A stretch of DNA of 23,068 nt from a virus. This document shows positions 1 to 21,200 of the stretch, piece by piece; position 1 is the first letter of the stretch; each line of letters starts with the position of its first letter. The notes below the pieces were generated by a model. It worked only from the letters and a program-made list of their open reading frames with translations. It was not told the DNA's origin and did not search any database. Made by a program: the position numbers and the translations under genes. The DNA is taken from IMG/VR virus record IMGVR_UViG_3300017776_000204, positions 1-23,068 of that record; one strand, written 5' to 3'.

Positions 1-1
1 G

Positions 2-1228
2 GTCATCCATCTGGACCGCTTTGTGCTTTGTCGTGATCCTATGGGTCACGTCACAGAGATTGTTGTCGAAGAAGAGGTTTACCCGCAAGCATTACCCGAA
101 GGATTTTTAAACGACGAAGAGGAGGAAGGAGAGTACAGCGACGCAAGCAGCAAGAAGACAGTCAAGGTCTACACCTGCGTCAAGTTCTACGAAGGTGAGT
201 GCCACTGGTATCAAGAGGTCAAAGGCAAAGAGGTGCCAGGCACACACGGCATGTGCAAGGAAGAAGCCACCCCTTGGATCAGCCTGCGATTTGACCGCGT
301 AGAAAGCGAGGAGTACGGACGCAGTTACGTCGAGCAGTATTACGGCGACTTGCTTGCGCTTGAGAATTTGAGCCAAGCAATCTTGGAGTCGTCAGCTGCA
401 GCAGCCAAGGCAATCTTCTTGGTCAACCCCAACGGCATGACCAGGCCACGCACCCTGGCTAACGCAGCCAATGGTGCAATCGTTCAGGGGTCAGCGTCAG
501 ACGTGACTGTCGTGCAAACCCAGAAGGGGGCCGACATGCAGATTGCTAACGCCACTATCGAGCGCATTGAGCAGCGACTGCAGTATGCCTTCATGCTGCA
601 CACCGCTATTCAGCGACCGGGTGAGCGTGTGACTGCGGAAGAAATCCGCTTTATGAGTCAGGAGCTGAACGCCGGCACTGCAGGACTCTATTCAATTCTG
701 ACCCAGGAATTGCAGCTGCCCCTGGTGCGGCGGCTGATGCACATCTTGCAGCGTCAACGCAAGCTGCCCCCGTTCCCGAAAGGGCAGGGCGGCAAGGCTT
801 TAGTTAGCCCTAAGCCTGTTACTGGGCTTGAGGCAATTGGCCGCGGCGATGACAAGAACAAGTTGATTGAGTTCATCACAACTGCACAGCAAGTTCTTGG
901 CCCAGAGATCATGGCTGAGTACATCAATGTCGACGAAGCGTTACGTCGGTTGGCTGCAAGCGGCAGCATTGATACAACAAACCTTGTTAAAACGCCCGAG
1001 CAGTTAGAGAATGAGCGCGCAGCTGCAGCGCAAGCACAACAAGAAGCTCAACAACAACAGATGTTGATGGAGGGCCTCAAGTCTGGCGCCGCTACGCAAG
1101 CAGCTAAAAACTACACACAACCAGGAGCACCCTATGGCCCGCAGTTCGAAGACGGCAACCCCGACGCCGGAACCCCAAACCAACTCCCCGACGGAGACGC
1201 CGTCGCCGAAGGAGGACAAGCAAGTTGA
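2..1228 (+). CDS. Portal (head-tail connector) protein, T7 gp8-like, 5' end missing
   Basis: The frame is open from the first bases of the window, so the true start lies upstream; the GTG at 23 is an internal valine. About 408 codons remain, against roughly 536 in T7 gp8, so the N-terminal quarter is absent. The portal is the dodecameric ring at one capsid vertex through which DNA is packaged and ejected, and on which the core and tail assemble. Visible portal-type stretches are LDRFVLCRDPMGHV near the window start, SLRFDRVESEEYGRSYVEQYYGDL, and VTAEEIRFMSQELNAGTAGLYSILTQEL, a block typical of T7-family portals. The C-terminus is low-complexity (Q/A-rich, then G/D/P-rich), as is usual. Scaffold and capsid genes downstream fit the call. 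The last 95 nt are also read in another frame by the next ORF. Confidence 0.92.
   Translation, partial: VIHLDRFVLCRDPMGHVTEIVVEEEVYPQALPEGFLNDEEEEGEYSDASSKKTVKVYTCVKFYEGECHWYQEVKGKEVPGTHGMCKEEATPWISLRFDRVESEEYGRSYVEQYYGDLLALENLSQAILESSAAAAKAIFLVNPNGMTRPRTLANAANGAIVQGSASDVTVVQTQKGADMQIANATIERIEQRLQYAFMLHTAIQRPGERVTAEEIRFMSQELNAGTAGLYSILTQELQLPLVRRLMHILQRQRKLPPFPKGQGGKALVSPKPVTGLEAIGRGDDKNKLIEFITTAQQVLGPEIMAEYINVDEALRRLAASGSIDTTNLVKTPEQLENERAAAAQAQQEAQQQQMLMEGLKSGAATQAAKNYTQPGAPYGPQFEDGNPDAGTPNQLPDGDAVAEGGQAS
1123..1127 (+). promoter_or_regulatory. Ribosome binding site for the small overlapping ORF
   Basis: AGGAG lies six bases before the ATG at 1134, inside the portal coding sequence. It is one of the better Shine-Dalgarno matches in the window, and it is the main reason to accept the overprinted ORF as real. 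Confidence 0.55.
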
Positions 1229-1322
1229 AGTCATCGACATAGCAGTTGATGAATCACAGGGACAGTCAGCGTCAATGCCTGAAGTGACTGTCGACGACAA
1301 AGGCGTCATCCAAATTTCCTGA
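1134..1322 (+). CDS. Small acidic hypothetical protein overlapping the portal gene
   Basis: A 62-codon ORF starts inside the portal gene in another frame (95-nt overlap) and ends 5 nt before the scaffold start. It fills what would otherwise be a gap of about 100 nt between portal and scaffold. The first half is Thr/Pro/Ser-rich (KTATPTPEPQTNSPTETPSP). The second half is acidic with a regular hydrophobic pattern (VEVIDIAVDES, VTVDDKGVIQIS). There is no signal peptide or membrane segment. I do not recognise a family; T7 has no gene here. The position suggests a late virion or assembly accessory protein, which is inference. An extension of the portal by frameshifting is a less likely alternative. 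Confidence 0.6.
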   Translation: MARSSKTATPTPEPQTNSPTETPSPKEDKQVEVIDIAVDESQGQSASMPEVTVDDKGVIQIS

Positions 1323-1327
1323 GACTT

Positions 1328-2122
1328 ATGCCTGAACCTGTAGTTATCGCTAACGAACCGGCGCCAGCGATGGCGCCTAAAGATCAAGCAGCCCTTACTG
1401 ATAACGACAACGTCGAGATCCAGGGCGAAGAGCAACTGTTTGCCGGCAAATACAAAACTGTCGACGAGCTAGTTAAGGGCTACAAAGAACTTGAAAGCCA
1501 GCAAGGCAAAGCTGACAACGAGCCGGAGCAGGAGTTAGCTGAGGGCGAAGAGCAATCAGCTAAGGAGATCTACGGCGAAGTTATTGGCGGCCGCCTCGAA
1601 GAAGCTGGCATTGACTTTGGCGACATGTCTTCTCGGTACGCCGAGAGCGGCATGCTGCAGGACGATGACTATGGCGAGCTTGAGAAAGCTGGCTTTAGTC
1701 GCAGCATGGTCGACAATTACTTGGCCGGTCTGCAGTACAACGCTGCTCAAGACAGCGCACTCAACGCACAGCAGGTATCTCAAATCAAGACTGAGTTCGG
1801 TGGCACCGATCAGTACGACGAGATGACTACGTGGGCTGCAGAGAACATGGAGGCTGACGAGATCGCTGCGTTTAATCGCATTGTTCAAGGCAGTAACGAC
1901 GGCGCACAAATTCGCCTTGCCATTGCTGGGCTTTACGCTCAGTACACAGCAAGCGAAGGTCGTGAACCACAGCTGTTAGGCGGCAAGTCAAGCAGCAGCA
2001 GCGGCAGCAAGTTTGAGTCAACAGCTCAAGTGATTGAGGCAATGAATGACCCTCGCTATGCAAGCGACCCTGCCTATAGAAAAGCAGTAGAAAAGCAGCT
2101 AAGCCGCTCTGCTGTCTTTTAA
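1328..2122 (+). CDS. Capsid assembly (scaffolding) protein, T7 gp9-like
   Basis: This 264-aa acidic protein lies between portal and major capsid genes, the fixed place of the scaffold in T7-like phages. Scaffolds form the internal core on which the procapsid shell assembles and leave before DNA packaging. The sequence shows an acidic, disordered N-terminus, then FAGKYKTVDELVKGYKELESQQGK, a pattern very common in podovirus scaffolds. A helical middle follows (FGDMSSRYAESGMLQDDDYGELEKAGFSRSMVDNYLAGLQYN), then a Ser-rich linker and a basic, helical C-terminus (DPAYRKAVEKQLSRSAVF), the usual coat-binding end. Length is close to T7 gp9 (about 307 aa). It is followed by a strong terminator. Confidence 0.88.
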   Translation: MPEPVVIANEPAPAMAPKDQAALTDNDNVEIQGEEQLFAGKYKTVDELVKGYKELESQQGKADNEPEQELAEGEEQSAKEIYGEVIGGRLEEAGIDFGDMSSRYAESGMLQDDDYGELEKAGFSRSMVDNYLAGLQYNAAQDSALNAQQVSQIKTEFGGTDQYDEMTTWAAENMEADEIAAFNRIVQGSNDGAQIRLAIAGLYAQYTASEGREPQLLGGKSSSSSGSKFESTAQVIEAMNDPRYASDPAYRKAVEKQLSRSAVF

Positions 2123-2158
2123 TTAGGTGGGCCGAGAGAGCCTGCCTCACACACATTG

Positions 2159-2188
2159 ACCCTTGGCTTAAGTACCCAAGGGTTTTTT
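2159..2188 (+). terminator. Intrinsic terminator after the scaffold gene
   Basis: A perfect inverted repeat, ACCCTTGG and CCAAGGGT (2159-2166 with 2176-2183), with a 9-nt loop, is followed directly by a run of six T (2183-2188). It lies 36 nt past the scaffold stop and before the capsid gene, so it would cap the portal-scaffold message or limit read-through into the capsid gene. Confidence 0.82.
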
Positions 2189-2314
2189 ATTGGGCTGTTT
2201 ACTGCTTACAATCTGTCTACCTAGACATTCATCTGGCGCACTGGCCCTCTGCGGAGGACACCCTGTGAGCTAAGAAGACTGGTCGGGTGCAACCCAATCT
2301 TTCTTTTAAGCCTC
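2189..2314 (+). promoter_or_regulatory. Capsid gene leader, probable promoter region
   Basis: No gene is seen in these 126 nt. Because a terminator precedes it and the most abundant virion protein follows, a promoter is expected here. Two weak candidates are visible: ATTGGGC at 2189-2195, which equals the first seven bases of the Syn5 cyanophage RNA polymerase promoter as I recall it, and TACAAT at 2207-2212, a -10-like box without a convincing -35. The leader also has two small hairpins (CCTC/GGAG around 2246-2257, GGGT/ACCC around 2285-2295). No Shine-Dalgarno sequence stands before the ATG at 2315. The promoter assignment is inference. Confidence 0.35.
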
Positions 2315-3280
2315 ATGGCTAACTTCACAGCCTCACGGCTGGGTCTCGTCAACGCAACAGGCACCAGCTTCGACGCACTTTTTTTAAAAGTATTTTCAGG
2401 AGAAGTGCTTTCATCGTTCCGTAAGTCAACGGTGTTTGAAACTTTGCACACAGTTCGGACTATTAGTTCGGGCAAAAGTGCACAGTTCCCAATCATTGGT
2501 ACTAGCTCAACTGCATATCACACACCGGGCACGCAGCTGACAGGCAATGCCATCAAGCATGCAGAAGCAACTGTGCTTATCGACGACAAGTTGGTGAGCA
2601 ATGTTTTTGTTGCTGACATTGATGAGGCCAAGAACCATTACGACGTTCGCAGCCAATACTCAACTCAGATGGGCAACGCCCTGGCCTATACGTTCGACAA
2701 GAACGTGGCAGCCATGGTGGCCAAGGCTGCTCGCACCGGCACCAACTTCAACACTGACCTGCCAGGCGGTACTCAGATCAACATTGCTGCTGCTTCAAAC
2801 GCAAAGGCAAACATCACTGGTGCTCAGCTAGCAACTGCTCTGTTCTCTGCAGCTCAGAAGCTAGACGAGAATGACGTACCCCCTGATTCGAGAGTCGCCG
2901 TATTAGCGCCTCGCGAATACTACAAATTGGTACAAGAGACCAACGTAATCAACCGCGATTGGGGCGGCCAAGGTGCATACGGAGACGGCAAAGTCTTCCG
3001 TGTTGCTGGCATTGACATTGTCATGTCCAACCACCTGCCTACCAGCAACCGCTCTGCTGCTACTGGGGAGAACAACTCCTACGCAGCAAACTTCACCAAC
3101 AATGTTGGCCTTGTCTTTAACAAGCAAGCCGTCGGCACTGTGAAGTTGATGGACCTGAAGATGGAGCAGACAGGACAAGACGTCCATGCTCTTTATCAAG
3201 GTACATTCATGGTTGGATCCATGGCGCTAGGCACCGGAATCCTCCGTCCTGATTGCGCAATTGAGATCACATTCACTTGA
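2315..3280 (+). CDS. Major capsid protein, T7 gp10-like
   Basis: The 321-aa shell protein of the icosahedral head. It follows T7 gp10A closely block by block: ALFLKVFSGEVL-like DALFLKVFSGEVLSSF, RTISSGKSAQFPIIGTS, IDDKLVSNVFVADIDEAKN, HYDVRSQYSTQMGNALA, VGLVFNKQAVGTVKLMDLKME, and MALGTGILRPDCAIEI at the end. These cover the N-arm, the E-loop region and the P and A domains of the HK97-type fold. It is slightly shorter than T7 gp10A (345 aa), mainly at the N-terminus. No frameshift-extended minor form (10B) is evident, because a terminator starts within 10 nt of the stop. The gene is flanked by terminators on both sides, suggesting separately controlled, high-level expression. Confidence 0.97.
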   Translation: MANFTASRLGLVNATGTSFDALFLKVFSGEVLSSFRKSTVFETLHTVRTISSGKSAQFPIIGTSSTAYHTPGTQLTGNAIKHAEATVLIDDKLVSNVFVADIDEAKNHYDVRSQYSTQMGNALAYTFDKNVAAMVAKAARTGTNFNTDLPGGTQINIAAASNAKANITGAQLATALFSAAQKLDENDVPPDSRVAVLAPREYYKLVQETNVINRDWGGQGAYGDGKVFRVAGIDIVMSNHLPTSNRSAATGENNSYAANFTNNVGLVFNKQAVGTVKLMDLKMEQTGQDVHALYQGTFMVGSMALGTGILRPDCAIEITFT

Positions 3281-3286
3281 TTCAGT

Positions 3287-3312
3287 GGGGGCTTCGGCCC
3301 CCTCTTTTCTTT
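3287..3312 (+). terminator. Intrinsic terminator after the capsid gene (T-phi-like position)
   Basis: GGGGGC (3287-3292), loop TTCG, GCCCCC (3297-3302), then a T-rich tract TCTTTTCTTT. The UUCG-type tetraloop on a six-base GC stem is very stable. It sits 6 nt past the capsid stop, the same place as T-phi in T7, where partial termination sets the capsid-to-tail expression ratio. Confidence 0.88.
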
Positions 3313-3323
3313 GCTAATTAACA

Positions 3324-3932
3324 ATGGCACTAGCCCGCACCACATTCCTGGAAGCAGTGAACCGCGTCCTGCAAATGATGGGCGAGGCGCCGGTCAACAG
3401 TCTTACGGGTCAGTTCCCTACTGCCAAGCAAGCGCAAGACACAATCAACGACGTGAGCCGCAAGCTGCAGTCAGAGGGCTGGTCGTTTAACACCACACTG
3501 CAGCAAGCATTGCCACGCAACACAGGCAACGAGATTGATATGGGTCCAAGTGTTAGCCGTGTCGTGGTTGACCCATTGATCTACCCCGACGTGGATGTCA
3601 CCATGCGCGGCGGCAGGTTGTATGACAGGAAGGCTGGCAAGTTCACGTTTACCGAGGATCTCAAAGGTGACGTGACTGCGTTGCTGGATTGGGACGATCT
3701 ACCTGAGCACGCCCACCACTACATCACAATCAAAGCTGGGCGCCAGCTGCAAGAAGCCTTGCTGGGCAGCGCCGACTTGACCAAGATCAACCTAACGATG
3801 GAGGCAGAGGCGAAGAGCATTTTCCTGGAGGAAGAGACGACACGCAGCGAACACAACTTCTTGCGTGGCAACCCCAACCGCACCAGCGTGCTCAACACCT
3901 ACATGCCTAGTCGTGCCCTGCAGCGCTTCTAG
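3324..3932 (+). CDS. Tail tubular protein A, T7 gp11-like (adaptor/gatekeeper)
   Basis: This 202-aa protein follows the capsid gene, as gp11 does in T7 (196 aa). gp11 forms the dodecameric ring joining the portal to the nozzle. Family features are the N-terminal helix block LARTTFLEAVNRVLQMMGEAPVNSL, the segment AQDTINDVSRKLQSEGWSFNT, which is a hallmark of tail tube A, and PEHAHHYITIKAGRQLQEALLGS near the middle. The start is preceded by an A+T-rich stretch without a Shine-Dalgarno sequence. Only 2 nt separate its stop from the next start, so translation of the two tail genes is probably coupled. Confidence 0.95.
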   Translation: MALARTTFLEAVNRVLQMMGEAPVNSLTGQFPTAKQAQDTINDVSRKLQSEGWSFNTTLQQALPRNTGNEIDMGPSVSRVVVDPLIYPDVDVTMRGGRLYDRKAGKFTFTEDLKGDVTALLDWDDLPEHAHHYITIKAGRQLQEALLGSADLTKINLTMEAEAKSIFLEEETTRSEHNFLRGNPNRTSVLNTYMPSRALQRF

Positions 3933-3934
3933 TT

Positions 3935-6361
3935 ATGCCACTTGTCAGCAGCTCAATCCCCAACCTCATTAATGGGGTCAGCCAACAGCCGGCTGCGCTG
4001 CGATTGGCATCGCAAGCAGAGCAAGTTATTAACTGCATGCCAAGCCCAGTCGAAGGGCTGAAGAAGCGACCAGCGTCAGACCATGTCGCCAAGTTGTTTG
4101 CTGGCTCAGTTGCAAACAGCCCGCCGTACTGCCACATCGTTGACCGTGACGGCAGCATCCAGCACCTGCTGGTAATCCGTGACGGATCTATTAAGGTCTT
4201 TGCTTTGGACGGCACTGAGCGCACAGTCGCTACGCCTAACGGCACTGCCTACCTAGACGTCACAGGCAATCCGTCAGAGCAGTTCCGGCTGGCGTCCATT
4301 GCTGACACCACGTTCATCGTTAACCGCGAGAAGACGGTTGCCATGGACACGTCGAACTTGTCGACGAACTGGGGCACGAAGGGAATGATCTTTGTCAAAG
4401 CTGCCAACTACTCAACGACCTACAGCGTCACAGTTGCTGGCGTCACAAAGACGCATGCAACTAGCGCAACGGGAGCGCTGAGCACAATTGCAATTGCAAC
4501 AGCTCTGCGAAATTCTTTAGCAGGCGATAGCAATCTCAACGCTTTTACTTTTACTCAAAACGATTTTGTTATTCGCGTAACTAAGAACGACGGGTCTGAC
4601 TACACCATGTCTGCAAGCGATACGCGCAGCAGCACAGACATCAGCTCGATTAAGGGCACCGTGTCTGCCATTAACGACTTGCCTGCATCAGCAGAGCACG
4701 GGTTCAAAGTCAGGGTGCAGGGCTCAGCTGCCACCAGCTTTGACGATTACTACGTTGAGTTCGAAGCCAACGCTGGCAGTGGGTTTGGCCCTGGGGTGTG
4801 GCGGGAAACTGTTGCATCAAACATCCAATATCAATTTGACCGGGCCACCATGCCGCATGTGCTGGTGCGGGCTGCTAATAACACATTTACTTTCCAGCAA
4901 TTTGCGTGGTCAGGACGCATTGCAGGCGACCTAGCTTCAGCGCCTAACCCAACGTTTGTCGGCAGTCAGGTAAAAAACGTCAACGTGTTTCGCAACCGTC
5001 TTGTCTTTCTGGCGGACGAAAACGTCATCATGTCGGCCGCTGATAACTACGACAGGTTCTTTCCAGAGACTGTGCAAACTGTTGTCGACAGCGACCCGAT
5101 TGACCTGACGTCTGGCGGCACGTCAATCAACTTCCTAACCAGCAGCCTGGCGTTTGCCAACACGCTGCTGTTGTTTAGTGCTCACGGCCAGTTCAGGCTT
5201 GACACTGGCGCAACCACAGTGGGCACAGCACTCACGCCAAGGACTGCAACTGTCACAGCGATCACGACCTTTGACCAACTACAGACGGTTGATCCAGTTG
5301 GTGTTGGACGAACTGTTTACTTAGCTATTCCAAAAGGCACATCAAACACTGGGCTGCGCGAGTTCTTCCTGCCTGACGCATCTGGTCCTGTGCCGCTATC
5401 AGAGGAGGTATCGACGCCAGTGCCTAGGTTTGTGCCAGGCAATTTGATTTCGATCTCCGCGTCAGTCTCTGAAGAAGCGTTGGCAATGGTCAGCTCTGAT
5501 CAATACCAACGGCTGTACCTATACAAGTTTTTCTTTCAGGATGACAACAAGCTGCAGTCAGCCTGGGGTTACTGGGAGATCAATGCCGGCGGCAAGATTG
5601 TTGGCACTGCTGTACTTGACAGCGATCTGTACCAAGTAATCGAGTACAGCGACGGCGTCTATTTACAGAAGACATCGCTGCGTCCAGAGAACGTAGACAA
5701 CACAGCAGAGTTTGAGGTGCTGCTCGATCGCAAAACAACAGAGGCAAGCTGCAGTATTGCCGTCAACAATGCTGGCGGTCTTGGCGTGACGTCGACAATC
5801 ACATTGCCGTACCCAATTGCAACTGCCAGCAAGACAGTGCTGGTTGGCCGCAAGGCGACAAGCAACACGATCGCCCATGGCCTGGTGCTTGAGCCAACAG
5901 CAGAAAGCCTGGCTGGTGGGGCTGGCGGCAACGGCACAATCACTGTGCGCGGCGACCTATCTAACGCCAAGTTTTTTGTAGGCGAAACCTACGAAATGCT
6001 GTACGAGTTCTCGACGCCATACGTCAAAGAAGAGCCACCGGGTGGTGGTGTGTCTGTGGCTGCAGGCCCGCGGCTACAACTCCGCACATGGACTGTGGTT
6101 TTTGATGACACGTCTACTTTTGAACTTCGTATTACGCCGCAGGGCCGTTCGGTAAACAAGTTTCCATTCAACGGAATAACAACAGGTAGTGGCAACCCAG
6201 TGCTGGGCAGCGCTTCACTGTCAACCAGCAGCTTCCGTGCGCCAGTGATGGCAAGAAACATAGACACTAAGATTGAGATATTCAGCGACAGTCCGATGCC
6301 ATGCCGCGTGCAATCAGCAGAGTGGGAGGGCTGGTTGCAGAACAGGGCGCCGAGGATCTAG
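3935..6361 (+). CDS. Tail tubular protein B, T7 gp12-like (nozzle)
   Basis: An 808-aa protein matching T7 gp12 (about 794 aa) in size and place. gp12 forms the hexameric nozzle below the gp11 ring and contacts the fibres. Characteristic stretches are the N-terminal SSIPNLINGVSQQPAALR followed by QAEQVINCMPSPVEGLKKRP, which is diagnostic for podovirus nozzle proteins; FVGSQVKNVNVFRNRLVFLADENVIMS in the middle; and TSLAFANTLLLFSAHGQFRLD-like sequence further on. The C-terminus ends PCRVQSAEWEGWLQNRAPRI, also a typical ending for this family. The last 61 nt overlap the next ORF in another frame. Confidence 0.96.
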   Translation: MPLVSSSIPNLINGVSQQPAALRLASQAEQVINCMPSPVEGLKKRPASDHVAKLFAGSVANSPPYCHIVDRDGSIQHLLVIRDGSIKVFALDGTERTVATPNGTAYLDVTGNPSEQFRLASIADTTFIVNREKTVAMDTSNLSTNWGTKGMIFVKAANYSTTYSVTVAGVTKTHATSATGALSTIAIATALRNSLAGDSNLNAFTFTQNDFVIRVTKNDGSDYTMSASDTRSSTDISSIKGTVSAINDLPASAEHGFKVRVQGSAATSFDDYYVEFEANAGSGFGPGVWRETVASNIQYQFDRATMPHVLVRAANNTFTFQQFAWSGRIAGDLASAPNPTFVGSQVKNVNVFRNRLVFLADENVIMSAADNYDRFFPETVQTVVDSDPIDLTSGGTSINFLTSSLAFANTLLLFSAHGQFRLDTGATTVGTALTPRTATVTAITTFDQLQTVDPVGVGRTVYLAIPKGTSNTGLREFFLPDASGPVPLSEEVSTPVPRFVPGNLISISASVSEEALAMVSSDQYQRLYLYKFFFQDDNKLQSAWGYWEINAGGKIVGTAVLDSDLYQVIEYSDGVYLQKTSLRPENVDNTAEFEVLLDRKTTEASCSIAVNNAGGLGVTSTITLPYPIATASKTVLVGRKATSNTIAHGLVLEPTAESLAGGAGGNGTITVRGDLSNAKFFVGETYEMLYEFSTPYVKEEPPGGGVSVAAGPRLQLRTWTVVFDDTSTFELRITPQGRSVNKFPFNGITTGSGNPVLGSASLSTSSFRAPVMARNIDTKIEIFSDSPMPCRVQSAEWEGWLQNRAPRI

Positions 6362-6822
6362 GCGAGGCGCATCAGCGAGCTACTCGCCCATCTGACTTGC
6401 GGCACCTGGCAGACAACATGCGCGCCAATGACGTGGCAGAAGTCATGGCGTGTTCTGGTTGCACGCCTGACCAGATGCTGCTTCATTGCTTTCTACACAG
6501 CGTGCCGTGCCGGACGATGGTCAGCAGGCATGGCCACGTCATGGGTATGTGGGGCGTCGTACCTGAAGCAAGTGGTGGCAGGGTGTGGATGCTGGGCACA
6601 GAAGGCATGGTTGACGACAAGCGTGACCGGCGGACCTTTCTGCGAAAATCAAAAGAGCAATTGCAGGAATTGTTTAGTGACTACAGCGTGCTGTTCAATG
6701 TGGTCGATGCCCGCAATACTGTTCACATCCGCTGGATAAAGCACATGGGTTTTACCTTTGTCGCTGAACACGCAGAATGGGGACCAGAAAAGCGGTTGTT
6801 CTACGAGTTTGTGAGGATCTGA
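6301..6822 (+). CDS. gp13-like internal/assembly protein with GNAT-like features
   Basis: This ORF of up to 173 aa sits between nozzle and gp14 genes, the place of T7 gene 13 (138 aa). Shared features with T7 gp13 include an N-terminal R-P-S-D block, a middle strand region (MWGVVPEASGGRVWMLGTEG), a helix with basic residues (RRTFLRKSKEQLQELF) and the C-terminal block RNTVHIRWIKHMGF (residues 138-151), which recalls the last part of a GNAT acetyltransferase fold. No acetylation function is shown; in T7 gp13 is needed for assembly and is lost from mature virions. The start is uncertain: ATG 6301 gives a 61-nt overlap and extra N-terminal residues, GTG 6322 is possible, and ATG 6418 would cut off the conserved RPSD block. 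Confidence 0.82.
   Translation: MPRAISRVGGLVAEQGAEDLGEAHQRATRPSDLRHLADNMRANDVAEVMACSGCTPDQMLLHCFLHSVPCRTMVSRHGHVMGMWGVVPEASGGRVWMLGTEGMVDDKRDRRTFLRKSKEQLQELFSDYSVLFNVVDARNTVHIRWIKHMGFTFVAEHAEWGPEKRLFYEFVRI
6814..6817 (+). promoter_or_regulatory. Ribosome binding site of the gp14-like gene
   Basis: AGGA inside the end of the gp13-like gene, eight bases before the ATG at 6826. It supports that start. Confidence 0.45.
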
Positions 6823-6825
6823 CTT

Positions 6826-7518
6826 ATGTGTTCAGTTGTAGTTCCAATCGTTCTTGCCGTTGCACAAGCAGGCCTGGGCATCATGCAAGCCAGCGCCCAG
6901 GAGCAGGCGGCACGCGAGCAGGTTCGGTTTGCAAACCAGCAGGCAGAGCAGCAATTTCAGTTTGACCAACTGCAAACAGATGCAGCGCGCACTGCTGAAC
7001 TGCAACGCGAATCACAGCGCGAAGAAGAGATTCGCCGCAACACGGAGTTGGCTCAAATCACACGAGCTAACGAGATTGCTGCAATTAACACTCGGTTCAG
7101 GCAGGAGCAGGAAGCTTCATCGCAAAAACAACAAGAGCAAGGCAGGCGATCATTAGAAGCAGCTGGCAAAATCAGGGCTCAGGGTCGCATTGGCAACAAC
7201 GTTGACTTGTTGCTCGCTGACGTCAAGCGGCAGCAAGCGACGTTTGATTACTGGGACGGCAGAAACTTGGCATTTATTGGCAACGAGCTGCAAGCACGCA
7301 AGGATGTGGCACAAGGCAACTTTGCCAACCGCGTAGCTAATCAAAGCCCGTATCAGAAGAAAATGATCCTTGATCCGCTTGAGCCAATGAAGAGATCAAT
7401 GCCTAGTTCGGCGCCATACCGACTAGCTGCGTTTGGCTCAGTGCTTTCTGCTGCGTCTAGTGGCGTCAATATGTATGCGGGTGGTGCAAATGCTGACGGA
7501 ACTAACTTCTTCAAATGA
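6826..7518 (+). CDS. Internal virion (core) protein, T7 gp14-like
   Basis: A 230-aa protein in the gp14 position (T7 gp14, 196 aa). T7 gp14 is the smallest ejected core protein and forms a pore in the outer membrane. Matching features are the start MCSVVVPIVLAVAQAGLGIM, where T7 also begins MC and then a small hydrophobic segment; a long Q/E/R-rich helix (residues about 25-125) including QQRSLEA-type repeats; and the C-terminal block YQKKMILDPLEPMKRS, which parallels LQMVLDPLAIMG of T7. A small hydrophobic and Gly-rich C-terminus follows. The stop overlaps the next start (ATGA), indicating translational coupling with the gp15-like gene. Confidence 0.88.
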   Translation: MCSVVVPIVLAVAQAGLGIMQASAQEQAAREQVRFANQQAEQQFQFDQLQTDAARTAELQRESQREEEIRRNTELAQITRANEIAAINTRFRQEQEASSQKQQEQGRRSLEAAGKIRAQGRIGNNVDLLLADVKRQQATFDYWDGRNLAFIGNELQARKDVAQGNFANRVANQSPYQKKMILDPLEPMKRSMPSSAPYRLAAFGSVLSAASSGVNMYAGGANADGTNFFK

Positions 7519-10391
7519 CTTCCTCAGTTCGCGGCCTTTTTGTAGGCGGCAAATCCAACAGCGGCAACACTCGTCGCACCAGTCAACGCACAGCACCTGT
7601 TGCCGAAAACCAGGGCGGCACTGCACCACTGCCGGATATTGATTTACCTGCCGAGCAGTTGTCGCCGCGAGCCTCTATGCAAGTGGCACAGCTGCAAGCG
7701 GAGAAGCAGGAGTACGTCAAAAATATTGAGTTTCCGCGTTACCAGCAAGATCCAAAACCTACAGGTATTGACGACCTGCAACGCTTAGCTCAATCGCTAG
7801 GAAATTTCAGCAACGATTTAGGCAACGTTGTTAAGGCTGGCGTTGGCTTAGAGCAATCCAACATTGCAGCGGCTAAGGCGCACGCAGAACAACTAGCCGC
7901 ACAAGGCCAAGCTTTCGGCCCATTTGCTGACTATGCAGCGCTGGTGCGCCAACTTGAAAAAGCGTCGACGGACACGTCGCTAGCAGAACCAAGACGGCAG
8001 CAAGCAGAAACTTTGCTTGACGAAGTGCGAGCACGGGGCAACAGGATTAAGCCGTACATCACAAGCGAAGCCAGGATTCTTGGCGTACAACGCAACACCA
8101 CGACTCTGGCTGCTGCGCAAAACAAAAATCCAATTGTCGGGCAAGACGAACTAGGCAATGATCTGTACCTCACAGATGTTTCGGCTGACGATTCGCGCTA
8201 TTTGCAATGGGCAGATAACCATATTTTTGGGAACACCATCCTTACGCCAGCAGAACATGAGCGCGTTAAAGGAAATATTTCAGCAGCCAGGGTTAACGCT
8301 GCTAACTCTCACAACTCTCAAGTCGCAAAGCGCCAGCAAGAGCAATACGCCGCGTCGTTTCGTTCGCGTCTGTCACAGATCGGAGAAGAAGATGCAAAGT
8401 CAGCATTGTCGAGCGGCGTAATTGCTGCGCCAGAATCCAAGATTGATCGAATACAAACGATCATGGATGAACGGGCGTTTCTTGGCCTGCCAAGCGACAT
8501 GCAGCAAGATTTATATAACGAGGCTTGGGATTTTTATTCGCAAGGATGGGCGACGGTTTACGAAGACGAAGGCCAGCAGCTGTCGGCAACTGCAGCTGTT
8601 GAGTTATTTGGAGAACTATATGTAGGTCCGTTGTCGGATCGCCGCAAAGCTGACGGCACGCCTAATGAAGCTTTGCGTTGGGTTAATACGCAAGATGCAG
8701 ATTGGGCAGCAACGGCTGAGTTTGATCTATTAAATGATCAAGCGGAAAAACGCAGAGACAGGCGCGGTATCCAAGCGCAACAGATTTTGTTTGACACACG
8801 AGAAGACGTTGCTGAAATTCAGTCTTTACTGTCTAGCAAAAATCCAGAAACTGGAGAGTACGACCTTGCCTCGCGCAGGCTTGGCGTTGAAAAATACGAG
8901 CAGCTCAAAAAAAGCCTTGCAAGCAATACTGATTTAGATCAAAAAGTTGTGCGCACTGCAATTAGCGATCTCGATAAATTATTTGACAGTGTCTATGAAG
9001 TTGTTTACGGCGAGCAGTTAGACGAAAATTATTTACAAGCAGTTATGTTAACTGCTTTTGTTAAAGCAGGCAGCATGACTACGCCTGACTTTATACAAAG
9101 AATCTCAGACATGAAAGACAAGCGCGAGATACGCGAAGAAGATTACGAAAAGCTCATGGGCAAGTTGCCGTCAATTGTAAACAGTGACGCAAAATTGTCT
9201 AGCGCTTTTAAGACTGTTGAAACTGAACGCAAAAGGATTGAGGACAACATTAAAGCACTTGAAAAATCTGGCCTGTCTCCAACAGATTTACAGGTAGAAG
9301 CTCTCTATGAAGCGCGAGATGATTTGCTGCAACAGCAGGGGCAGCTTGTTGTTGATTACGTTGAAGGTAAAATTAAAACTGATGAAGAATTGCAAGAGCG
9401 CATATTGTCTATAGTGCCAACAGATCGTCAACAAGATCAAATAGTTGCGCTTGAAACATTTGAAGATTACAACAATTCCATACCAAGAATTAAGCCGTTA
9501 GAAAGCACGTCAGGCGTTGTGGACATGCAGCGCTATGACTCTGCGTTTCGCGGCAATACGGCAGAACGACAGCAGCAAATGCTTAAGCAGCACGAAGACG
9601 AGCAGCCAATCTTTCACGCAACGATGGCTGTCCGCCTAGGCATGTCATTAAAAGAAGGTGCACCAGTTGATGGGTACGACTTCAAAACAATCCAAGACAA
9701 TTTGCCGCCTGGCATTTCACCTGGTGCCTTTATGGAGCGCGAGCTTTTGAAGGTGGCCGCACTTGCAGAGCGAGCTGGCGACCCACGCGCAGCTCAGTAC
9801 AAACGACTTGCTAAAGAAATTGCTGATTACAAAGCGCCGCAAAAAGTTAGCTACGTTGCACCTGAGGCCATTAAAACTTTTGGCGCAAAAGCAAACCAAA
9901 CCCTTAGTGCAATGCTTGATGTACTTCTTGGAGTTAGTCCTGCCGCTGCGCAGATGGTTCCATCACAAGCTGAGTACAGATTTGCTCCTCCACCAGGCCA
10001 GCAAAGTATTCCTAATTTGGTAAAAATTGCGCTGAGTGCAGGCTTTACCCCAGAAGAAGCTGCTATTGCCGCGGCCGTCAGCATGGCGGAAAGCAGTGGC
10101 AAGCCCGGCGCATTTAACCCAGACGCATCTACTGGCGACAAGTCCTATGGGTTATGGCAAATCAACATGCTTGGCGGCATGGGGCCAGAACGCCGCAAAG
10201 AATTTGGCCTTGGCAGAGACGAAGATCTGTGGAACCCCACAACCAATGCAATGGCGGCCCGCAAAATTTATTTGTCACAAGGTTGGGGAGCGTGGAGCGT
10301 TACTCGCTCATACAAAGGAGCGCCGCCTGCATACCTCCAATATCTACCCGAAGCGCGCAAGGCATTGCAGACTGTGCTCAAGACCAAGTAA
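7515..10391 (+). CDS. Internal virion protein, gp15-like, with C-terminal lytic transglycosylase domain
   Basis: A 958-aa protein in the gp15 position (T7 gp15, 747 aa). T7 gp15 is a mostly helical core protein ejected to form part of the periplasmic conduit. Residues 1 to about 800 are long, charged, helix-rich and lack recognisable enzymatic motifs. Residues about 831-958 add a lysozyme-like transglycosylase domain, absent from T7 gp15: catalytic-type Glu859 in VSMAESSGKP, SYGLWQINM at 877-885, and DLWNPTTNAMAARKIYLSQGWGAWS. The start is the ATGA overlap at 7515. Codons around 8,900-9,500 are clearly more A+T-rich than the neighbours (37% G+C at 8941-9000). The gene ends 6 nt before the giant gene. 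Homology of the N-terminal part to gp15 rests on position and general character. Confidence 0.85.
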   Translation: MTSSVRGLFVGGKSNSGNTRRTSQRTAPVAENQGGTAPLPDIDLPAEQLSPRASMQVAQLQAEKQEYVKNIEFPRYQQDPKPTGIDDLQRLAQSLGNFSNDLGNVVKAGVGLEQSNIAAAKAHAEQLAAQGQAFGPFADYAALVRQLEKASTDTSLAEPRRQQAETLLDEVRARGNRIKPYITSEARILGVQRNTTTLAAAQNKNPIVGQDELGNDLYLTDVSADDSRYLQWADNHIFGNTILTPAEHERVKGNISAARVNAANSHNSQVAKRQQEQYAASFRSRLSQIGEEDAKSALSSGVIAAPESKIDRIQTIMDERAFLGLPSDMQQDLYNEAWDFYSQGWATVYEDEGQQLSATAAVELFGELYVGPLSDRRKADGTPNEALRWVNTQDADWAATAEFDLLNDQAEKRRDRRGIQAQQILFDTREDVAEIQSLLSSKNPETGEYDLASRRLGVEKYEQLKKSLASNTDLDQKVVRTAISDLDKLFDSVYEVVYGEQLDENYLQAVMLTAFVKAGSMTTPDFIQRISDMKDKREIREEDYEKLMGKLPSIVNSDAKLSSAFKTVETERKRIEDNIKALEKSGLSPTDLQVEALYEARDDLLQQQGQLVVDYVEGKIKTDEELQERILSIVPTDRQQDQIVALETFEDYNNSIPRIKPLESTSGVVDMQRYDSAFRGNTAERQQQMLKQHEDEQPIFHATMAVRLGMSLKEGAPVDGYDFKTIQDNLPPGISPGAFMERELLKVAALAERAGDPRAAQYKRLAKEIADYKAPQKVSYVAPEAIKTFGAKANQTLSAMLDVLLGVSPAAAQMVPSQAEYRFAPPPGQQSIPNLVKIALSAGFTPEEAAIAAAVSMAESSGKPGAFNPDASTGDKSYGLWQINMLGGMGPERRKEFGLGRDEDLWNPTTNAMAARKIYLSQGWGAWSVTRSYKGAPPAYLQYLPEARKALQTVLKTK
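10005..10388 (+). other. Lytic transglycosylase (SLT/lysozyme-like) domain at the end of the gp15-like protein
   Basis: Residues 831-958 read as a complete small transglycosylase domain. A helix (SIPNLVKIALSAGFTPEEAA) leads to AVSMAESSGKPGAFNP with the catalytic Glu859. Then come SYGLWQINM (Gly-Leu-Trp-Gln-Ile-Asn, residues 879-884), LWNPTTNAMAARKI, and QGWGAWS with two Trp. It would cleave peptidoglycan glycan strands locally during genome entry. In T7 the same activity is in the N-terminus of gp16; here it lies in the gene before. Just upstream is LLGVSPAAAQ, resembling a signal-peptidase site, perhaps by chance. Confidence 0.82.
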
Positions 10392-10397
10392 CGACAC

Positions 10398-13300
10398 ATG
10401 CCACTTAGCCTGGAAGAACTGCAGGGCCTGAGCTTCAGCAGTGAGCAGTCGCAGGAACCAGCACCGGTGGCGCCGGTTCAACAACTTGACGTTGTGCCAT
10501 TCGGCGCAGAAGAGCCGGAAGAAGCAGCGTTAGCAGAGCCTGTTGCGGAAGAGCAGCAAGAAAGGCAGGAAGAGCAGCAGCCAAATTTGCTGCAGCGTGC
10601 AGCTGATTTGATTACAGGTGCCAACGACTCATTACTTGCAGACATCAATACAGCCGCGGCCGTTACAGCGGAAAGCGGGTTTGTTAGGCCTTTGTATAAC
10701 CAGCTGTATGACCGCGTTGCAGAGAACCTTGGCCAAGGAGTTGGCGAAGAGCGCCGTGCAATTACAGGCTTTAACGAGGACGGCACATTTAAACAAGAAA
10801 CGTATGTAGTTCCCGAACTGCAAGAGTTTGAGCCTGTGCCACCCATGTTTAAAGACGGCAACGTCAACATGGATTACATCGAGCACATAACTGCGCCTAA
10901 CGAGCGCGGCTTGCGGCTTGGTTTGCTGCCAATGTTTACCGGCACAAAGCGCAAAGTCTTAGCCAAAGACGGCACGCTTAAAACTGTTCGGACTGACGCG
11001 CCGTTCCCTGTTGTTGGAGACGTTGAGCGTCTGTCAACTGGCAACGCGCTTGCTGACGCTGGGCTGGGAATGATTGGCCAGCTTGCGCAATTGCTGACGA
11101 TCAACAGCTTTATGCGCTCTGCAGGCATGCCGCGCACTCCTGGCGCGCAAGCTCTTAACAAGATTGCAGCCAACCCACAGTCCAGTCGCTTGCAGCGTCT
11201 CGGTGCTACTGCGGCGCGGGAATCCATGGACCTGCTGCCAGCATCGCTGCTGCAACGTGAAATTAATAACCCATACCTAGAAGGCACAGGCGTCAGCGCG
11301 CTTGGCGACCTTGGCGTTTACTCAGCAAAAAATCTTTTTCCAGACAACCCAGACATTCAAAGCTTTGCCGAAAAGATTCAAGGCTATACAGATGCCCTGC
11401 GCATTAACCCAGACGACCCGTTAGATGTTGCCCGCGGCAAAGCGCTAGCTGATGAACTGGTGTTTATGGCGCCGCTTGGCGGCCTGCTTGGCACCACGTT
11501 TTCTGCGTTATCAAAGAATGGGATGCAGGGCTCTGCGTTCCGAGAGCTAAACCAAGAATTGCAAGAGGCATACGCCGACGCCGCCGGCAAACTCATCCTG
11601 GCCAACAAGGCGGAAGGTGTTGCTCGTGCAGCGCGGGAGGTGCCAGAAACGCCACCAGCAGAAACGCTTGCAGAGGAAGTGCGCGTTTATTCCGCAGCTG
11701 AGCGCAAGCTGGATCAAGTTCGACGTGCTGATGAGCTGCGCAAAAAACAAGGCTTGCAGCGAGGAGAGGCGACAGAGCAATTAACGACTGACCCTGATCG
11801 GCCACGGGTGCTGGGACCAGAAGAAGCGGATGCACTTGTAGAGCAGAAGACGCAAGAAGCTGTTGCCAGCGTGCAAAAGCTGCAAACCGTTGTTGCAAAA
11901 GCTGGGCAAATTGCAGAGCCGCAAGCGCGGCCTCAAGGCGTTGACCCGCAAGTTGCGACCTATCCAAAAGAAGAGATTTTTACAGCACCTAAACAGCTGC
12001 AATACAAGCTGAGCGGCATCGGCAAAGGCGGCTCAACTGGCAGCCTGGGCGACGTCAAAAGCTATGACCCTGATCTAGCTGGCGTCATGCTGGTGTGGCG
12101 AGACGTCGAAGGAGAACTTGGCCCGCCTGGCCGTGTTTACGCAGTGGACGGCCACAACCGCTTAGAGCTTGCTGAGCGCAGTGGATGGCAAGGCGGCATG
12201 AACGTCATGTTCATCAATGACGCTCCTAACGCTGCAGCTGCACGCATGAAGGGCGCGTTATCCAACATTGCCCATGGCAACGGCACGCCGATTGACGCTG
12301 CTAAAGCCATGCGTGACGGCAATCTTGGCGTCGAAGATCTGCGCGCTAAGAACTTGTCGATCAAAGCCAGTGTTGCCAATACTGCAATTGGCTTAAAAGG
12401 TTTGCCACAAGATTTGTTTGACCAAGTTATCGACGGCAAGATCTCACAAAGTGCTGGCGCAATTGTTGGTCGCAGCAGCCTGAATGCTCAAGTGCAACGC
12501 GAGCTAATTCAAGCCGCAAGAAAGAAAAAGTGGTCCGACGCAAAGCTACGAGAGGCCACGGCCATGAGCTTTGACACTGTTGTCGAGCAAGGAGTTGACG
12601 CAGGCATGCTGCCTGGCCTTGGTGATTTCACGTCGACTGATTTCAATAAGCGCATGGACGTGCGCATTGCTATTCGCGGCCATCACATGAACGTTCTGCG
12701 TGCAATGGGCGCAGTGACTAACAGCAAGCGCAGCGTCGAGCTGGAAAAAACTGGCAACGTGCTGGATTTTGAAGCCAGCGCAGCAGCAGAAGAGTCTGCC
12801 AAACGTGGCATCAGCATTTTTAACAAGGTCGCAGGCATGTCAGGCCCTGTGTCTGACTTGATCAGCGAGCTTGTAAGCCAAATCGGTCCTGGCAAATCTG
12901 CACAAAAGTTGGTCGAGCGCAACGCGCAACGCATTAACGAGGTTCTAGACAGCTACATCAAGAAAGACTTGGTGCCTGCGCAAGCAGCAAAAGATGTTGC
13001 AGCAAAAGATGCAGCAAAAGCTGACGCCGAAGACGCAATTTTGGAGTCAGAGGCAGAGGTGCCGCGGCCAATCATTGAAAAGAAAAAAGTGCAAGTTGCT
13101 GCAGCTGAGCGGTATGCACGCGACTTAATGAAAAAGTCTTTTGCTGCTGTGCCTGCGGACAAAGAGCAAGAGGTGTTTGAGTACCTAATGCGCCAATACA
13201 TGGAGAAGGGTGCAATCACCAGCAACCCATTTCCTATCAACGCAAAGGCGGATCAGTTTCCTGACGCCAAAGTTGCCGAGCCAGAAGCATTACCCCTGGA

Positions 13301-18251: not shown

Positions 18252-21200
18252 TGCCGTTCGCAGAGGACTCGTACACGGGCAATGGCTCCACCAAGGAGTT
18301 CAATATCTCCTTTGCGTACATCTTGGAGAGTCACATTGAAGTGGCTCTCAACGAGGTTTTAACTACGGCGTTCACGGTCGACACGTCAACCAGCCCTAAG
18401 AAGGTGGTGATGAACACGCTGGGGTCAGAAACCTCAACGCAAACGACTACAGGCGCTCCAAAGGCTGGCGTCAACGTTGTGGTGCAACGGAACTCAAGCC
18501 TTAACGCTGCACTGGTTGACTACACCGACGGGTCGACTCTGATTGCAGACGATCTTGATAAGTCAAATAAACAATTCTTGTTTCTGCTGCAGGAGCAGGA
18601 CGACGAGCAGGCGGCAAACATTCAGTCAACGCTTGCAGGGCAAGACGCTCAGAACAAAAAAATTATCAACGTTGCGGACCCGACCGCAGCTCAGCACGCA
18701 GCAACCAAGAACTACGTCGACACTGGTTTCCAGCCGCTTGATGCTGAGCTAACTGAGCTGGCAACCATGTCGTCTGGCACTGCCGGCGCACTGGCAGACC
18801 TGACACAAGCAGAGACACAGATCCTTGATGGCGCAACCGTCAGCACGTCGGAGCTAAATACGCTTGATGGAATCACTGCGTCTACGTCAGAACTCAACAA
18901 ATTAGATGGCGTCACTGCCAGCACAGCTGAGTTAAACAAGCTGGACGGGGTTACAGCAAGCACTGCTGAACTCAACATTGTTGACGGTGTTACTGCTACT
19001 GCCGCTGAGATCAATGCGCTTGACGGGATCACTGCGTCTACTGCCGAGCTGAACAAGCTGGATGGCGTCACTGCATCGACGGCTGAGATCAACCTGCTGG
19101 ATGGCGTCACTGCCACAACAGCAGAGCTGAACTTTGTCGACGGTGTCACTTCTGCAATTCAGAACCAGATCAACGGCAAGCAGCCGCTGGACTCTGAACT
19201 GACAGAGCTGGCCACCATGCCAGCAACTACAGCATCTGCCCTTGCTGATCTAACTCAGGCAGAAGTGCAAGTGCTTGATGGTGCCACCCTCAGCACTACA
19301 GAGCTGAACAAGTTAGACGGTGTTACGTCGACGACAGCTGAGATCAACGTCCTAGATGGCGTCACTGCCAGCACTACCGAGCTAAATGTCACCGATGGAT
19401 TGACTGCATCAACGGCTGAAATCAATCAGCTGGACGGCAAGACAGTTAGCAGCACGCTGACACCAGCCAACACCAACGACATTCCGACCAGCTCGGCAGT
19501 CAACACGTTTGTGTCTGGCTTGCTTAATGCCTTGGGCGGCTTTGTCGCCATCGCAAACGAGGTCAGCTTCCCGACAACCAACCCTGACCCCAGCGATAAC
19601 GCGGGCACGGTGGTGTCAATTGCTGATGCCGGTGGCGTTGTAGTTGATGCCAGCGGAGTAAGCGCTACTGGTCGGACTACCGGCAACGTCACGGTCACAA
19701 TCAATGGCTTTCCTAGCAGCCTGCATAGCACCACCCTGGGCGCTGGCCTGGGCCTGCAAGTACAGACAACAAGCACACTCAACACTTACACCTATCACAA
19801 ACTCATTGCCAAAGAAGCTGACGTCAAACAGCTGAGCGATGACATCAATGATTTCCAAGCGCGGTATCGCGTGTCGGCTAATGCGCCAACCACGGATCTA
19901 GACGAAGGCGATCTCTGGTACGACACCACTGCCAACAAGATGAAGGTGTACGACACCGCAACATCTGCATGGAAAGAGGTTCAGTCTGTCGGCAACTTCT
20001 TTATCAACACACTGTCGTCGTCAAGCGCTACGGGCGGTGGGTCTGCCACATTTAACGGCAGTGCTTATCGGTTCACCCTTAGCAACGCTGGCGCTAACGC
20101 CCAGCAAATGCTGGTCAGTGTTAATGGCGTTATCCAAAAGCCAAACAGCGGCACAAGCCAGCCATCAGAAGGCTTTGCGATTAACAACAACGACATCATC
20201 TTTGCTGCTGCACCTGCGTCTGGTGCAAGTCAGTTCATTGTCACGATTGGATCAACAGTAAATATTGGTCAGCCAAGCAACAACACTGTTGACACATCGG
20301 AGCTAGTCGATGGTGCTGTTACTAACGCCAAGGTAAGCAGTAGTGCTGCAATTGCGTCTTCTAAACTTGCCAAACCTATCGACTTTGCTGACAACGAAAA
20401 AGCACGGTTTGGCACCGGCAATGATTTAGAAATTTATCACGATGGCAGTCATTCTTATGTTCTCGATAATGGCACAGGAGATCTTAGATTAGCCTCAAAT
20501 GGTGTCACAGCAATTACAAAAGGCGACTCAGAAATGTGTGCCGGCTTTAATGTAGACGGAGCAGTAGAACTTTATTACGACAACGCTAAAAAGCTTGAAA
20601 CCAAATCAGACGGCATCGACGTAACCGGCGAAGTCCAGTGCGACAGCTTGGATGTTGATGGAGCTGCTGAGATTAGTGTCCCTGGCAACTCCAGCGCTTT
20701 AGTCGTTAAACAATCAGGAGTCAGCGCTGAATACATTACTCTTTACGCAGCATCTGGGGGTGGCGGTCAAGTCTTTGTCAAAGATGGTTCTGGAACTTCA
20801 AAGATTCAACTACTGGGATCTGATGGCAGCGCCACGTTTGCTGGTCAAGTAGCAGCAGTCGCCAACAACGCATCTGGAACCGAGTCAGCTATTAAAGCAG
20901 TACAAATTAATGCAAATGGTTATGCGTTGTGGGTTGGCAGTGGTGAAAGTACCAGGACTGCTTATATCCTGCCCAACGGCTCGGCCACGTTTGCATCTAC
21001 AATTACTGCTGGCAATGAATCATCAACAGGAACAAACATATTTGCAAGTGGCAGTGCTCAAGGTATTGTTGGAGGAACTCAAAAGTGGTACTTGGGAACA
21101 GACGGCAGCGCCACGTTTGCTAGCACAATAATTTCAGGAGGTGACGCCTCAGGAGGGGCTAATACTGGATCGAGAATAGACGGAGGGAGTGGATTCTCTG

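Follow-up and report, generated by a model that had tools for sequence, protein, structure and literature searches.

Our analysis suggests that the major capsid gene of this T7-like phage is preceded by a structured leader RNA, built around a small hairpin whose stem varies between relatives and whose loop and bulge are almost fixed. Taken as a whole explanation, we think it rather probable that the capsid gene forms a transcription unit of its own, and that this unit carries the leader as a conserved cis-acting element. Transcription arriving from the scaffold side would halt at an upstream terminator (2158-2188), and a new RNA would begin near position 2219, driven by a host promoter of the sigma70-like type whose -10 box is TACAAT. 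The first 96 nucleotides of this RNA would fold into three parts: a core hairpin (P2), shown by covariation, that has a loop of the YNMG class and a bulge on its 3' side; an outer helix (P0) supported at the family level; and a third hairpin (P3) predicted from the single sequence. Transcription would then end at 3287-3312, just past the gene, to give an RNA of about 1.09 kb. The leader element most likely acts in cis on the capsid mRNA, most plausibly by setting its translation or its lifetime, and probably controls in this way the amount of shell protein made; a factor recognising the hairpin would mediate the effect. How T7-like phages beyond the coliphage model achieve a high and well-timed capsid output has been little mapped. 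A leader RNA with a variable stem and a near-fixed loop and bulge, common to phages of cyanobacteria, Pelagibacter, Roseobacter-group bacteria, Rhizobium and Bordetella, offers a concrete handle for learning whether it governs capsid yield and what binds it.

The window, by which we mean the whole stretch of 23,068 nucleotides analysed here, lies in the late region of a marine T7-like phage, with the scaffold, capsid and tail tubular genes in this order. An abstract counts the phage family to which it belongs among the most abundant in the ocean (PMC11092137). The capsid protein falls into PHROG 267 (major head protein, E 3.3e-84) and shares 73.4% identity with its counterpart in Prochlorococcus phage P-SCSP1u. 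The search that recovered a T7-like RNA polymerase gene in nine of nine related records gave no RNA polymerase match in the window, a 23-kb fragment. In the records of loci L009, L013, L023 and L040 (G001-G004) this polymerase gene lies on the strand opposite to the capsid leader, and P-SCSP1u, G005, G006, G007 and G008 have an arrangement unlike that one. Elsewhere in the window we noticed repeats spaced by 39 nucleotides inside the tail fibre gene (18812-19447) and an open reading frame of 958 amino acids (7515-10391) with no PHROG match at 1e-5. By eye, the stretch 5' of the capsid leader in L020, L022, L023 and L028 is unlike the 3' end of the scaffold gene of the other relatives, which suggests a change of gene there. 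The features of the capsid unit are collected in Table 1.

Table 1. Features of the capsid transcription unit, in coordinates of the window.
Feature	Position	Strand	Details	Basis
Upstream intrinsic terminator	2158..2188	+	stem 2158-2166/2176-2184, loop 2167-2175, T run 2183-2188; hairpin letters GACCCTTGG/CCAAGGGTT at 2158-2184	
Candidate host-type promoter, -10-like box	2207..2212	+	TACAAT	spacing conservation; no -35 match
Putative start region of the capsid transcript	2219..2226	+	conserved ACCTAGAC	conservation
Capsid 5' leader RNA	2219..2314	+	96 nt if the start is 2219	
Outer helix P0	2228..2269	+	position in the window ambiguous	family-level permutation test
Core hairpin P2	2243..2262	+	GG/CC 2243-2244/2261-2262; bulge ACA 2258-2260; CCUC/GAGG 2246-2249/2254-2257; UGCG loop 2250-2253	covariation; folds of 2225-2314 and 2219-2314
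Third hairpin P3 of the leader	2273..2307	+		single-sequence folds
Major capsid protein gene	2315..3280	+	321 aa	open reading frame, PHROG and relative match
Downstream intrinsic terminator, directly 3' of the capsid gene	3287..3312	+	GGGGGC-TTCG-GCCCCC 3287-3302, then tail TCTTTTCTTT	stock scan and fold

The strongest signal in the leader, which is 90-112 nt long among 43 distinct leaders, comes from P2. In three alignments its stem is paired in 98-100% of cases and shows double-sided changes at three of the four pairs. Cells in which both sides have changed number 40, 21 and 49, against 9.6, 6.0 and 14.0 in shuffles (0/500 shuffles in each alignment), and the covariation scores are 0.56, 0.35 and 0.61, where slid controls do not exceed 0.18, 0.09 and 0.10. 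Two other counts did not rise above the shuffles, namely the number of P2 pairs with double changes (260, 81 and 456 of 500) and the number of P2 pair types (147, 127 and 473 of 500). Across 36 distinct stem-loops we counted 140 Watson-Crick pairs, four G-U pairs and no A-C pair, a small number that leans towards a plus-strand RNA over a DNA hairpin. When no loop sequence was imposed and only a following A-N-A was required, all 132 matches to a covariance model of the hairpin combined a four-pair stem with a four-base loop. From their sequence, we take 130 of these loops to belong to the YNMG tetraloop class (UGCG 82, UACG 37, CACG 8, UGAG 2, CGAG 1); the remaining two are YNMG loops read in an alternative register. 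The bulge reads A-Y-A in 39 of 44 distinct stem-loops and A-G-A in the remaining five. Conservation is lower for the GG/CC pairs adjoining P2, which persist in just 72%, 4% and 38% of cells in the three alignments; this is because the lineages concerned often have U or A in place of the first G, and a bulge with one extra base. Run on full leaders, RNAalifold returned the hairpin with the GG/CC pairs and nothing else.

The remainder of the fold is less sharply drawn. For P0, a permutation test on 68 non-redundant elements gave -8.00 with their own flanks and -6.00 (sd 0.30) with permuted flanks (0/2000), a family-level signal in which the own flank ranked in the best 10% for only 14 of the 68 elements (mean rank 0.30). 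In the window itself P0 could be formed by UUCAU 2228-2232 with GUGAG 2265-2269, where two of the five pairs are G-U, or, following the fold of 2225-2314, by CAC 2239-2241 with GUG 2265-2267. Folded whole, the leader does only mildly better than its shuffles (z -2.15 for 2189-2340 and -1.30 for 2225-2314), and the minimum-energy fold of 2189-2340 lacks P2. Two further pairings were considered and not adopted. The first (P1) joins the 5' end ACCTAGA to the Shine-Dalgarno region. Of 43 distinct leaders, 26 form 6 bp or more in this way, compared with 4.8% of shuffles; the other 17, the window's own sequence among them, do not. The second (P1b, GACC with GGUC) was seen by eye with a weak count lacking a control, and we make no claim for it.

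The hairpin appears to be tied to capsid genes of viruses. A scan of viral contigs with its core pattern gave at least 119 stretches. Among the matches listed, 115 were analysed; all 115 have a complementary stem and 107 have a capsid open reading frame at most 700 nt downstream. In bacterial genomes, the same pattern gave 65 matches: a complementary stem was present in 10, close to what chance would give, and a capsid open reading frame downstream in none of the 65. Eight of the listed viral matches lacked a detected capsid. For two of them, L162 and L193, the flanks match those of leaders that do precede a capsid gene, and their dismissal as chance matches was dropped after this comparison. 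The covariance model, built from 32 sequences, was then searched at E up to 1 in two sets of further loci (55 of 80 and 57 of 93, selected by eye so that near-duplicates and truncated loci were left aside), many of them close relatives of model members. It found a match 34-155 nt 5' of the capsid gene in 49 of 55 and 51 of 57 of them, and a single match elsewhere. Six loci in each set gave no match; by eye, nine of these 12 carry a short-stem, long-stem or shifted version of the hairpin, and L337, L338 and L419 carry none.

Whole records contain exactly one copy in 20 of 27 cases and none in seven (T7, LUZ100, ProddE, Pasto, Limnohabitans phage, P-SSP7 and S-SBP1). Most of the 20 matched records hold model members or near copies, and the named phages among them are members of the model, so that this search bears on copy number and absence only. 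P-SSP7 and S-SBP1 do show a related-looking hairpin by eye despite the lack of a model match, and the UGCG form is present in a viral contig (L158) that shares the downstream sequence of P-SSP7. A weak second match to a leader model in P-SCSP1u (L082, 36706-36762, E 0.1) was absent from the whole-record search at 0.1. By host or name, the records bearing the element are linked to Prochlorococcus, Pelagibacter, Roseobacter-group Paracoccaceae, Rhizobium and Bordetella, and so span two phyla, the cyanobacteria and the proteobacteria.

What could such an element do? A stem free to vary, combined with a conserved loop and bulge, speaks for recognition by a partner and against a role in stability alone, and the spread over hosts of two phyla suggests that this partner is either encoded by the phage or widely shared. 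The variable distance to the start codon (34-155 nt) fits poorly with simple occlusion of the ribosome-binding site. The same variability would suit a hairpin that protects or processes the 5' end of the capsid mRNA, as a handle for RNase III or RNase E or as a stabiliser, with no regulator involved. Capsid protein is needed in bulk, nucleases such as RNase III and RNase E are widespread in bacteria, and in the clade of the window the element does sit close to where the mRNA presumably starts. On the other hand, neither a conserved loop nor a conserved bulge would be required of a plain stabiliser, and the YNMG loop (130/132) and the A-Y-A bulge (39/44) are both strongly kept; we regard 5'-end protection as a serious possibility, if short of a probable one.

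The hairpin might instead be an operator that throttles capsid translation when bound by a protein of the virion (capsid or scaffold) or by some other phage protein. Its presence as a single copy in 20 of 27 records, before the capsid gene, would agree with this, as would the conserved loop and bulge on a stem free to vary, which recall known coat-protein operators. The sharing of the hairpin by phages of two bacterial phyla makes a phage-encoded partner plausible. Our literature search, largely outside subscription journals, found no operator for a T7-like capsid gene, and we consider the operator, deduced from the features of the hairpin, somewhat unlikely. Bolder still, and in our view doubtful, is the generalization that a large part of the T7-like family carries a once-per-genome RNA operator before the capsid gene, read by a virion protein or another phage protein. 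If this were true, an RNA switch would tie capsid synthesis to assembly in the manner of RNA phages, but in double-stranded DNA phages of cyanobacteria and proteobacteria.

The cis-acting leader that we favour would be delivered as part of a transcript of its own, and the arrangement of terminators is consistent with this. The preliminary description placed the capsid leader and gene between two hairpin-T terminators, and folds, shuffles and a stricter scan all bear this out. Both sites combine a G+C-rich hairpin with a U run, the T tract of the downstream one being interrupted. The upstream hairpin has a folding energy of -12.8 kcal/mol (z -2.90) and the downstream one of -15.2 kcal/mol (z -2.84), with 3/200 shuffles equally good in each case. 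A stock scan missed the upstream terminator because its loop is 9 nt long. A stricter rule (loop 3-10, at least four G-C pairs, TTTT in the tail) finds on the plus strand of the window the two bracketing terminators and one weak site within the capsid open reading frame (2574-2600), against a background of two positives among 504 segments of 230 nt in six records (the window and five relatives). By the looser stock scan, positions 1-12000 hold 24 terminator-like sites on both strands, compared with 15.5 (sd 4.1) in shuffles, so that the bracketing terminators are not alone under that rule. The fold of 2125-2190 shows an extra hairpin at 2125-2147, between the scaffold stop codon and the upstream terminator.

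When the gap is compared across relatives, the promoter box and the leader are kept, and the two-terminator layout is not general. The upstream terminator is found in only 30 of 75 loci, the window included, and is absent from A+T-rich leaders such as that of P-SCSP1u; it is lineage-specific. Where present, its hairpin takes 14 distinct strings among 18 representatives (window included), the pairing being kept as the letters vary. The downstream terminator is found by the stricter rule in 55 of 74 loci, and several of the relatives that miss it show, by eye, a hairpin with a poorer T tract. Since the box and the leader are kept where the upstream terminator is missing, the conserved feature is the promoter box with the leader, and not the pair of terminators.

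The candidate promoter is supported by its spacing. Among 129 matches with an ACCTAG-type anchor (69 distinct leaders; 60 matches without the anchor were set aside), a sigma70-type -10 box, TANNNT, stands at a fixed distance from the putative start in 69 of 69 distinct leaders, the gap from TANNNT to ACCTAG being 6 nt in 65 of them and 7 nt in the other four. A promoter within 2189-2314 and a transcript of roughly 1.1 kb had both been predicted beforehand. The former now has a candidate in the TANNNT box, and the latter agrees with the distance of about 1.09 kb from the presumed start near 2219 to a stop near 3305; the conserved structured RNA in the same gap had been overlooked. A stock scan detected no two-hexamer site, and hence no -35 element, within 2189-2314. 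Neither the window, nor P-SCSP1u, nor any of four further whole or nearly whole relatives repeats the stretch from -40 to +10 beyond what shuffles give, with the sole exception of -40 to -20 in P-SCSP1u (17/20 matching positions, shuffled maximum 16). The upstream stretch is likewise unrepeated in CRP-171, where the comparison had no shuffled control. As the box is unrepeated in related whole or nearly whole records, it looks host-type, and its conservation suggests a sigma70-like promoter without a -35 element. A host promoter would be surprising here, since all nine relatives encode a T7-like polymerase, the expected maker of late mRNA, and the phage promoter that serves the capsid unit of LUZ100 counts against it. 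The motif ATTGGGC, just 3' of the upstream terminator, resembles what we take to be a cyanophage promoter; it was set aside as such, most relatives being without it.

Could the conserved stretch be a promoter for the phage's own T7-like RNA polymerase, possibly in the form of a DNA hairpin? The polymerase gene in nine of nine related records and the capsid-proximal phage promoters annotated in T7 and LUZ100 would speak for it. The virion polymerase of phage N4 uses DNA-hairpin promoters, which occur in several copies per genome. The hairpin studied here is found once per record (20/27) or not at all (7/27), the upstream stretch has no near-repeats in relatives, and four G-U pairs with no A-C pair in 36 stem-loops lean towards a plus-strand RNA. 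LUZ100 has few late promoters, so that a lack of repeats in the late region would be insufficient by itself, and it is the whole-record tests that carry the point; as the window is a 23-kb fragment without a polymerase match, the rejection rests on its relatives. With the stretch unrepeated and the hairpin single-copy in these relatives, we judge a phage-polymerase promoter at the leader very unlikely. That the leader is an antitermination signal, allowing host polymerase to pass the downstream terminator into the tail genes, is hardly to be expected: cis-acting antitermination RNAs exist in lambdoid phages, and the element does lie between a host-type promoter box and a terminator, yet nothing in our analysis links it to a polymerase.

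In the loci searched, the leader RNA corresponds to no family of Rfam 15. The window gave no match at the gathering threshold and nothing credible at E up to 5 in 2050-3400; in 14 further loci the only matches were to a tRNA and to Glutamine-II, neither of them at the element. No published description of the leader element was found in a literature search largely outside subscription journals. The main texts of two of the articles retrieved contain no word beginning with promoter or terminator (PMC9860041; PMC11092137), and that of a 2010 survey of structured RNAs with cyanophage motifs contains no word beginning with capsid (PMC2864571). Other marine phages likewise carry structured 5' leaders, including Glutamine-II (RF01704) and, in excerpts of the same survey, manA, wcaG and PhotoRC-II (PMC2864571); none of them matches the window. 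We observed a Glutamine-II match (RF01704, 48.1 bits) in P-SSP7 (L275:700-753, GU071093), about 250 nt before the capsid gene. A second pre-capsid structure-like element was seen by eye in P-SSP7 (L275, ~808-857) and S-SBP1 (L276, ~797-847); it consists of a closing stem and two hairpins, one like a tRNA T-arm, and has no Rfam match.

In form, the hairpin is reminiscent of the coat-protein operators of RNA phages, which are likewise small hairpins with a conserved loop and bulge, located at the capsid gene. The virus class, the loop and the bulge differ from those of the window. The transcription unit itself has closer parallels. Gene 10 of T7 is, like the capsid gene of the window, served by a local promoter (phi10) and followed by a terminator (Tphi). 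As had been stated at the outset, T7 has only the terminator after gene 10: in the stretch examined of a recombinant clone (PP384408), Tphi is the sole annotated terminator, with none upstream. Unlike the host-type candidate of the window, phi10 is a promoter for the phage polymerase, and the whole T7 record of this clone contains no match to the hairpin model. For LUZ100, excerpts of the source already report a capsid unit that has its promoter nearby and ends in a strong terminator downstream (PMC10134795). Its promoter phi7 is one of several similar phage-polymerase promoters and lies about 560-600 nt upstream; terminator T16 follows the capsid gene and the annotated terminators T13-T15 precede it. 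The LUZ100 leader carries a tRNA-Asn (L265:1140-1215) between phi7 and the capsid gene, and a UGCG hairpin is visible there by eye only, with no model match. With a local promoter and a terminator at the capsid genes of both T7 and LUZ100, isolation of the capsid unit is nothing new in kind; the novelty lies in the leader RNA.
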